From NCBI RefSeq assembly GCF_004143485.2, contig NZ_ML974131.1, positions 512,341 to 576,340 of the forward strand: 64,000 nucleotides of DNA, in the 5' to 3' direction. A program made the translations under genes and the position numbers. The notes beneath the pieces are model-generated. The model worked only from the letters and a program-made list of their open reading frames with translations, did not search any database and had not been told where the DNA came from. Shown here piece by piece: positions 56,013 to 57,916 of this stretch (the stretch's first letter is position 1; each line of letters begins with the position of its first letter). Source of the stretch: Halorussus amylolyticus (lineage in GTDB: Archaea > Halobacteriota > Halobacteria > Halobacteriales > Haladaptataceae).

Positions 56013-56738
56013 ATGAATCCGACGCGCGTCGACACGATTGTGGACCTCGCGTACGGCCTGTTGATTGCGATTTCGGTGGGCTTGATAGTCGTCACCGACT
56101 ACGCAATCGGACTCGCGTTCGGGTTCGGCATCCTGCTGTCGTACCTCCTCCACGTCGTGTGGAAGATGGCGCGATTCGACCCCGAGTGGATGACCACGGT
56201 CGTCAAGGAGACGGTCGAGGAAACCGTGGAGGAGACCGTCAACGACACGGTCGAGGAGAAGGTGGGCGAAACTGTCGAGAAGACCGTCGGTGACACCGTC
56301 GAGGAGAAAGTGGGCGAGACGGTCGAGAAGACGGTCGGCGAAACCGTGGGCGAGACCGTCGACGAGACGGTCGGCACCGCCGTCGAGGAGAAGGTGAACG
56401 AAACCGTCGAGAAGACAGTCGGAGAGACGGTCGAAAAGACGGTCGGCGAAACGGTCGAGAAGACAGTGGGCGAAACCGTCGAAGAGACAGTCGAGGAGAC
56501 CGTTGGCAAGACGGTGGAAAAGGAAGTCGGCGAAACCGTCGAGCAGAAGGTCAGCGAGACGGTCGAGGAGACCGTCGGGAAGACGGTGGAAAAGGAAGTC
56601 GGCGAAACCGTCGAAGAGAAAGTCGGCGAAACGGTCGAGGAGAAGGTCGGCGAAACGGTCGAACAGACGCTGGAGGAGCAACTCGAATCCGCGGAGGACG
56701 CTCCCAAGAAAGACGACGCGACGGACGGGAAAGACTGA
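56013..56738 (+). CDS. membrane-anchored tetrapeptide-repeat protein
   Basis: A 241-residue protein. Residues 8-50 hold two hydrophobic helices (DLAYGLLIAISVGLIVVTD and GLAFGFGILLSYLLHVVW). From residue 65 to 224 the sequence is forty uninterrupted four-residue units of the form x-x-T/K-V (for example GETVEKTVGETV), with Val (38) or Leu (2) at every fourth position and mostly Glu, Gly, Thr and Lys elsewhere. A short acidic-basic tail ends the protein. A helix with period 4.0 would carry a steep right-handed hydrophobic stripe, unlike a heptad coil. The stop overlaps the PiT gene by one base (TGATG). No family name is known to me. Confidence 0.85.
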   Translation: MNPTRVDTIVDLAYGLLIAISVGLIVVTDYAIGLAFGFGILLSYLLHVVWKMARFDPEWMTTVVKETVEETVEETVNDTVEEKVGETVEKTVGDTVEEKVGETVEKTVGETVGETVDETVGTAVEEKVNETVEKTVGETVEKTVGETVEKTVGETVEETVEETVGKTVEKEVGETVEQKVSETVEETVGKTVEKEVGETVEEKVGETVEEKVGETVEQTLEEQLESAEDAPKKDDATDGKD

Positions 56739-57916
56739 TGGTGGACGTTCTCCTCATCGTCGGCGTCGTCGTCGCGATGTTCGTCGCGTACAACATCGGC
56801 GGCGCGACGACCGGGCCAGCCTTCGGTCCCGCGGTCGGCGCGGACGCGATTTCGAAGACGGCCGCCGCGGCGCTGATGGGCCTGTTCTTCTTCATTGGTG
56901 CCTGGACAATCGGCCGAAACGTCGTGACGAAACTCGGGAGCGAACTCGTCGTCGATACCGGCGTGTTCACGCCCGAGTCGTCCATCGCGGTGCTGTTTTT
57001 CATCGGCATCGCGCTGTTCGTGGGGAACGTCTTCGGCGTGCCCGCCTCGACCTCGATGACGGCCGTCGGGGCTATCGCGGGGTTGGGTCTGGCGGGCGAC
57101 GCGCTCGACCTCGCCGTGATGGGCGAAATCGTGACGTGGTGGGTCGTCTCGCCCATCGTGGGCTTTTGGGTGTCGCTAATCATCGGCCGATACTTCTACG
57201 CGCGACTCAATCGCATGGTCGCAATCGAGCGGAGCGAGGGGCCGTTGCTCGACATCGACCGCTCGGGACTCGTCCCGATTCCGCGCCTCCACCGGACGAC
57301 CAATCGCCGGGAGGTAGTCGGGACGATTACGGTGGTCGCTATCGGCTGCCTGATGGCGTTTAGCTCCGGCACGTCGAACATCGCGAACGCGGTCGCGCCG
57401 CTCGTCGGCAGCGGCGAACTCGCGATGAACCCCGCGATACTCATCGGCTGTGTCGCGGTCGTGGTCGGCGCGTTCACGATTGCGCGCCGGACGCTGGAGA
57501 CGATGGGGAGCGACATCACCGAACTCCCGCTGACCGCGGCCATCGTCGTCGCCACGGTCAGTTCCACGCTCGTCGTCTTCCTCTCGGCGCTCGGGATTCC
57601 CGCGAGCTTCGTCATCATCGCGACGACCTCGATTATCGGACTCGGCTGGGGTCGAGCGACCCGACCGATGACCCTCCCCGAGGCGGTCACCGGCGAAGGC
57701 GACTCGCCGGTCTCGGTCAACGCGCTGGCCTCCGACGAAGAGGGCGAGGAACTCCCGCCCATCGGCGAGGAGGACCCCGAGGACGTTCCCCACGCGGGGG
57801 CGCTGTTCGACCCCGCGACGACCGCCCGCGTCGTTCTGATGCAGAACGTCGTCCCGGCGATAGCCACGCTCGGCGCGTACCTCACCTTCCGGTTCGTTCC
57901 GATATTCGGGTTCTGA
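56738..57916 (+). CDS. inorganic phosphate transporter (PiT family)
   Basis: A 392-residue membrane protein with about ten helices. The two inverted PiT signature regions are recognisable: YNIGGATTGPAFGPAVGADAISKTAA in the first half and FSSGTSNIANAVAPLVGSGEL in the second. The first is degenerate relative to the classical GxNDxANA, so the ion could be phosphate or another oxyanion such as sulfate. A central acidic loop (EEGEELPPIGEEDPE) is present. It starts on the last base of the preceding tetrapeptide-repeat gene's stop codon, implying one mRNA and coupled translation. Confidence 0.9.
   Translation: MVDVLLIVGVVVAMFVAYNIGGATTGPAFGPAVGADAISKTAAAALMGLFFFIGAWTIGRNVVTKLGSELVVDTGVFTPESSIAVLFFIGIALFVGNVFGVPASTSMTAVGAIAGLGLAGDALDLAVMGEIVTWWVVSPIVGFWVSLIIGRYFYARLNRMVAIERSEGPLLDIDRSGLVPIPRLHRTTNRREVVGTITVVAIGCLMAFSSGTSNIANAVAPLVGSGELAMNPAILIGCVAVVVGAFTIARRTLETMGSDITELPLTAAIVVATVSSTLVVFLSALGIPASFVIIATTSIIGLGWGRATRPMTLPEAVTGEGDSPVSVNALASDEEGEELPPIGEEDPEDVPHAGALFDPATTARVVLMQNVVPAIATLGAYLTFRFVPIFGF

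Follow-up and report, generated by a model that had tools for sequence, protein, structure and literature searches.

The window, which is the whole stretch of DNA analyzed here (64,000 nucleotides of Halorussus amylolyticus contig NZ_ML974131.1), contains two overlapping genes on the plus strand. The upstream gene (56013..56738 including the stop codon), assigned from its open reading frame and translation, begins with ATG and encodes a tetrad-repeat membrane protein of 241 amino acids. Its first 60 residues (56013..56192) constitute a conserved two-helix membrane domain with the pattern MNPxRVDxxxDLxYG...WKMARFDPxWM, as judged from alignment A1 of the N-terminal domain, the distribution of charge and a structural model. 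Residues 61-224 (56193..56684) are the tetrad array, in which Val or Leu occupies every fourth residue from 64 to 224 (41 positions), and residues 225-241 (56685..56735) are an acidic low-complexity tail that varies among relatives. The downstream gene (56738..57916) encodes a CysP-like permease of the PiT superfamily (392 aa; PF01384, E 1.7e-40). The two genes meet in the sequence TGATG (56736..56740), where the stop codon and the start codon have one base in common, as the original prediction had stated for a PiT-family gene. An antisense frame of 202 codons (56099-56707, minus strand) mirrors the tetrad repeat and accounts for a minus-strand match in the same genome (39%), which is no more than that repeat read on the opposite strand; nothing here speaks for this frame as a gene.

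The 41 consecutive fourth positions are filled by 39 Val and two Leu, a run with a probability of ~5e-25 from composition; the longest run in 5000 shuffles of the repeat region was 9. Position 3 of the unit is Thr in 30/41 and Lys in 6/41, the remainder being Glu, Gln, Ala or Val. The array had been described as forty uninterrupted xx(T/K)V units at residues 65-224. The array itself and its unbroken Val/Leu positions (64-224) hold, but Thr or Lys is missing from a minority of units. The repeat has a net charge of -35 over 164 residues, and Tandem Repeats Finder reports periods of 12, 24, 36 and 72 bases in the underlying DNA. With 3.6 residues per turn, a period of four drifts by 40 degrees per unit and the stripe completes a turn in 36 residues, so the arithmetic of the original prediction was correct; with 3.63 residues per turn the values are 36.7 degrees and 39 residues.

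The 12-base units underlying the repeat were compared in order to separate the protein register from repetition of the DNA. In the window, 33 of 40 such units are distinct. In unit-to-unit comparisons of the 12-mers within genes, the mismatch at the first, second and third base of the Val codon is 0.12, 0.00 and 0.42, and at the third base of the Thr/Lys codon it is 0.61. When close relatives are aligned, gap lengths are multiples of four residues in 303/390 cases in the tetrad region versus 23/199 in the tail, counts that are supportive and not proof because the aligner pairs Val with Val and thereby biases gaps toward multiples of four. The divergence of third codon positions, the retention of Val and the predominance of indels in multiples of four together indicate that the four-residue register is under selection and does not reflect DNA repetition alone. 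Among homologues, which represent different species with one genome each, repeat number varies widely, from ~6 to 82 units; the start of the array is mostly at residue 60 or 64. Two Haladaptatus genes are 99.5% identical over their first 195 bases, yet their products differ in length by 36 aa, and three Natrialba genes encode proteins of 179, 175 and 171 aa.

The N-terminal domain is present in 252/392 Halobacteriales genomes and in 72/95 genera, with Haloferax marinum among the species that have it, and a profile search of 295 genomes across the phylum gave matches confined to Halobacteriales. In a diverse set, alignment A1 has a mean column identity of 74% and 19 invariant columns, which include D7, D11, Y14, G15, G33, G39, H47, W50, K51, M52, R54, F55, D56, P57, W59 and M60. 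The domain defines an unnamed family that is restricted to Halobacteriales among the genomes searched. No Pfam or NCBIfam model matched the window's 241-aa protein at cut-off. DUF445 and GvpQ gave matches below cut-off and confined to the repeat, DUF7269 matched one homologue below cut-off, and YtxH and Apolipoprotein matched weakly in one homologue each; these matches were rejected because they are repeat-driven and under cut-off. The family was likewise not found in titles or abstracts of the literature on archaeal tetrapeptide-repeat membrane proteins and haloarchaeal PiT or sulfate permeases.

The fetched homologues carry the tetrad. In one class, without the RRP motif, the period is pure (median 4.00, n=64), and in the other (median 3.88, n=66) a 3/4-spaced end segment carries DRRPREDE. 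About half of the homologues end in this way, V-xx-V-xxx-I...DRRPREDE, with the segment carrying on the putative tetrad helix. Open frames of 500-1100 aa that could have been gene fusions proved to be upstream open frames at the nine loci checked, where the proteins are 229-339 aa. A distant paralogue in another genome (G039:C1:133259-133411, L201) reads IELAYGALFIVGIGFLIF...YLLRIWEKM followed by period-4 V/E repeats. It matches the A1 profile with E 5.5e-5 and has the same two-helix plus period-4 plan, which suggests a wider superfamily.

The charge distribution was used to assess topology. Per protein, the count of Lys plus Arg is 1.15 at one end of the hairpin and 2.0 at the other, versus 0.16 in the loop; given positive ends and a nearly uncharged loop, both ends and the repeat are predicted to be cytoplasmic. 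An extracellular glycosylated fibril is disfavored by the same positive-inside rule. The two membrane helices predicted ahead of the repeats were recovered as hydrophobic helices at residues 3-28 and 30-55 in the model (pLDDT ~63-79). Monomer models of the window protein and of a short homologue gave block means of ~63-84 for the membrane helices and a pTM of ~0.25; the membrane part was modeled as two helices in the former and as one long helix in the latter. Both models place helix in the repeat, at low confidence, and with this pTM they say little about the repeat. Hydrophobic spacings in the homologues are almost only 3 and 4, and Pro accounts for 11 of 11,014 repeat residues. Two features speak against a helix: its mean propensity in the repeat is low, at 0.55 kcal/mol compared with 0.38 for GCN4, and Gly occurs in 15/41 units of the window repeat. 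From the 3/4 spacings, the scarcity of Pro and the continuation into the 3/4-spaced segment, we infer that the repeat is helical. Among solved structures, the best match to the repeat was 9ikm (TLP-4, with a TASX repeat) at E 0.42, which is not credible.

Coiled coils have periodicities of ~3.33-3.9 residues per turn, and the most extreme local value known is 3.8 (PMC4786415). The window repeat, at 4.00, does not have classical coiled-coil periodicity; the original contention that a period of 4.0 is unlike normal coiled coils is thus borne out, the value lying beyond the upper limit of ~3.9 (PMC4786415).

The identity of the permease was assessed from profile scores and from its signature sites. 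Its PF01384 score of 139.6 bits against a cut-off of 33.7 places it in the PiT superfamily. The nearest named model is NCBIfam NF053884 (CysP), at 158 bits and below the equivalog cut-off of 400, whereas PitA scored 15.6 bits against a cut-off of 800. Aligned to TmPiT (6l85), the counterparts of the two GANDVAN sites are GGATTGP (56798..56818), with Asp replaced by Thr, and GTSNIAN (57368..57388), with Asp replaced by Asn. Phosphate PiT proteins have Asp in both GANDVANA motifs, and neither is present here; phosphate transport requires these aspartates, which CysP replaces with G and N (PMC5840216). No signature-site Asp was tabulated among 208 distinct PiT matches from the fetched loci, a few partial matches being unreadable. 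With both aspartates replaced, a phosphate role appears unlikely, and the substrate is more probably sulfate or a different oxyanion. By sequence, the permease is best described as CysP-like, outside formal CysP membership by the curated cut-off. The proposed PiT permease is therefore upheld at the level of the superfamily but not as a normal phosphate PiT, since neither GANDVANA motif retains its aspartate, a loss that CysP shares. It had also been argued that the partner is not the PhoU-like protein normally paired with PiT. PhoU is indeed absent by Pfam and NCBIfam, but because the permease is CysP-like and lacks the GANDVANA aspartates, the contrast with PhoU-like partners is beside the point, and a phosphate-transporter partner of the PhoU type was rejected on the signature residues together with the absence of PhoU. 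Other PF01384 genes of the host genome lie at G000 C8:22648, C1:74582 and C11:103609, and the readable signature-like sites of these host paralogues are not plain GANDVAN (e.g., WALGASSTSPP in L210). In several genomes (G013, G016, G020 and G023), two or three PiT-family paralogues also stand in tandem.

Co-occurrence of the two genes was examined across genomes. Among the 28 genomes of the host family, 8 have a permease at least 82% identical, and exactly these 8 have the N-terminal domain. Among the 392 Halobacteriales genomes, counting the permease as present at E <= 1e-140, 232 have both, 20 the domain only, 15 the permease only and 125 neither (odds ratio 97, Fisher p ~1e-62, with phylogeny not corrected for). 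A PiT gene is near 108/131 distinct fetched homologues, which had been ranked by how closely they match the window: 31 overlap it (by -1, -4 or -8), 37 lie upstream with a gap, 27 are divergent and 13 are otherwise near; the fetched stretch has no PiT in 23/131, some of them at contig ends. Because this sample was similarity-ranked, adjacency was recounted on an even sample, in which a PiT gene is beside 30/44 copies and 14/44 have none within reach. At loci with wide flanks PiT was found in 64/80, compared with 0 for the metallophosphoesterase, 0 for the ATP-grasp-like gene and 2 for the TFB gene that also neighbor the pair in the window. The variety of orientations shows that the association is not mere inherited operon order.

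The association with PiT-family genes, on which the original prediction depended, is real and wide; it is often, though not always, physical, and it is independent of the overlap. That prediction had concluded from the overlap that the two proteins are made together. The overlap is present, but it is just one arrangement among several, with 37 gapped and 27 divergent pairs of 131, and the association therefore does not depend on coupled translation. In Haloferax volcanii, overlapping gene pairs encode subunits of complexes in 45.2% of cases versus 5.6% for distant pairs (PMC10666635), a statistic that fits the overlapping class, the window pair included. In many loci (L075, L086, L118, L127 and others) a copy of the tetrad gene lies between two PiT genes, of which the divergent one is ~65% identical to the window's and the convergent one ~48%. 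One paralogue group (L084, L154 and L183) is without a PiT neighbor and lies beside what we take to be a SAM-dependent methyltransferase-like gene and one resembling malate:quinone oxidoreductase.

These observations can be brought together in a reading to which we give an even chance, namely that the 241-aa protein is an accessory subunit of the CysP-type permease, built from a membrane hairpin and a cytoplasmic, oligomerizing helical rod. The two-helix hairpin would lie in the membrane with both ends cytoplasmic and would be the likeliest part to dock on the permease, putting WKMARFDPxWM at the boundary of membrane and cytoplasm. The repeat would form a long, acidic, weakly hydrophobic helix extending into the cytoplasm, and such helices may self-associate, clustering permeases or relaying to them a signal from the cytoplasm, for instance its ionic strength. 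Rod length could be tuned over evolution by single 4-residue units with the register to the membrane domain retained. Docking, oligomerization and whatever is sensed or gated are inferred along with repeat helicity, and the scaffold, spacer or gate suggested originally would stand at the same level. The copies without PiT in the even sample, the paralogue group near other genes, the low-confidence models and the weak helix propensity of the Gly-containing repeat count against an accessory subunit.

The first two of these points, and the two-helix plus period-4 plan of the distant G039 relative, also favor the main rival, a general membrane-anchored cytoplasmic rod (a scaffold or cytoskeleton-like brush) that is no transporter subunit, its PiT linkage reflecting shared regulation or phylogenetic history. 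However, the family and a single permease subfamily co-occur almost one to one, and PiT adjacency survives several rearrangements of orientation while other neighbors are not retained; this makes the rival rather unlikely in our estimate. The repeat could also be a disordered acidic spacer, a charged entropic brush or tether without defined helix in which Val at every fourth position is a by-product of the 12-base repeat. Low pLDDT, weak helix propensity, high net charge, large length variation and the nested DNA repeat periods are all consistent with this, yet Val is retained despite diverged synonymous sites, most 12-mers are distinct, spacings are nearly all 3 or 4, Pro is almost absent and about half of the homologues run into the 3/4-spaced segment. 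We consider a disordered spacer improbable. The upstream frame might instead serve mainly for expression, with termination-reinitiation setting the permease level and its own product being minor. Overlaps of 1, 4 or 8 bases, as in the 31/131 above, are of a type known to couple translation in Haloferax (PMC6728339, PMC10666635), but gapped and divergent arrangements are equally common and the N-terminal domain is strongly conserved, which leaves this explanation with very little probability.

The repeat may even assemble its helices in a novel way, at a true 4/1 period, perhaps as a brush-like or strongly right-handed bundle that multimolar salt stabilizes; the length of this assembly, in steps of one unit, would set the response of the CysP-type permease. 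We regard this as a doubtful proposal. A period of 4.0 residues per turn is out of reach in the accepted theory of coiled coils, yet it is kept over up to 82 uninterrupted positions. A solved structure would directly test the coiled-coil limit. The tetrad family occurs in most Halobacteriales genera sampled. It further opens a way to study the control of oxyanion uptake in haloarchaea, where the partner permease is easily labeled a phosphate transporter though it is without the phosphate signature.

Several known systems resemble parts of this pair. The sulfate permease CysP of Bacillus subtilis is likewise of the PiT superfamily, with both signature Asp absent and Asn at the second site (PMC5840216); unlike CysP, the window permease falls short of the NCBIfam cut-off and its sulfate substrate is putative. 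The text consulted there describes no tetrad-repeat protein as a partner of CysP. PhoU-like PiT partners also form gene pairs with PiT-superfamily permeases, but the tetrad protein is without PhoU similarity and is membrane-anchored, and its permease is without the phosphate signature. In the osmosensing transporter ProP, a cytoplasmic helical extension of a secondary transporter tunes the response (PMC4272814), to which the putative helix here would correspond. This is an analogy only, since the tetrad protein is a separate gene product with its own membrane hairpin, another repeat and another transporter family. Right-handed coiled coils (hendecad 11/3, pentadecad 15/4 and YadA 19/5) have in common with the putative tetrad helix the 4/3 hydrophobic spacings and a right-handed drift, whereas the tetrad family has an unbroken period of 4.00 over up to 82 units (limits in PMC4786415).
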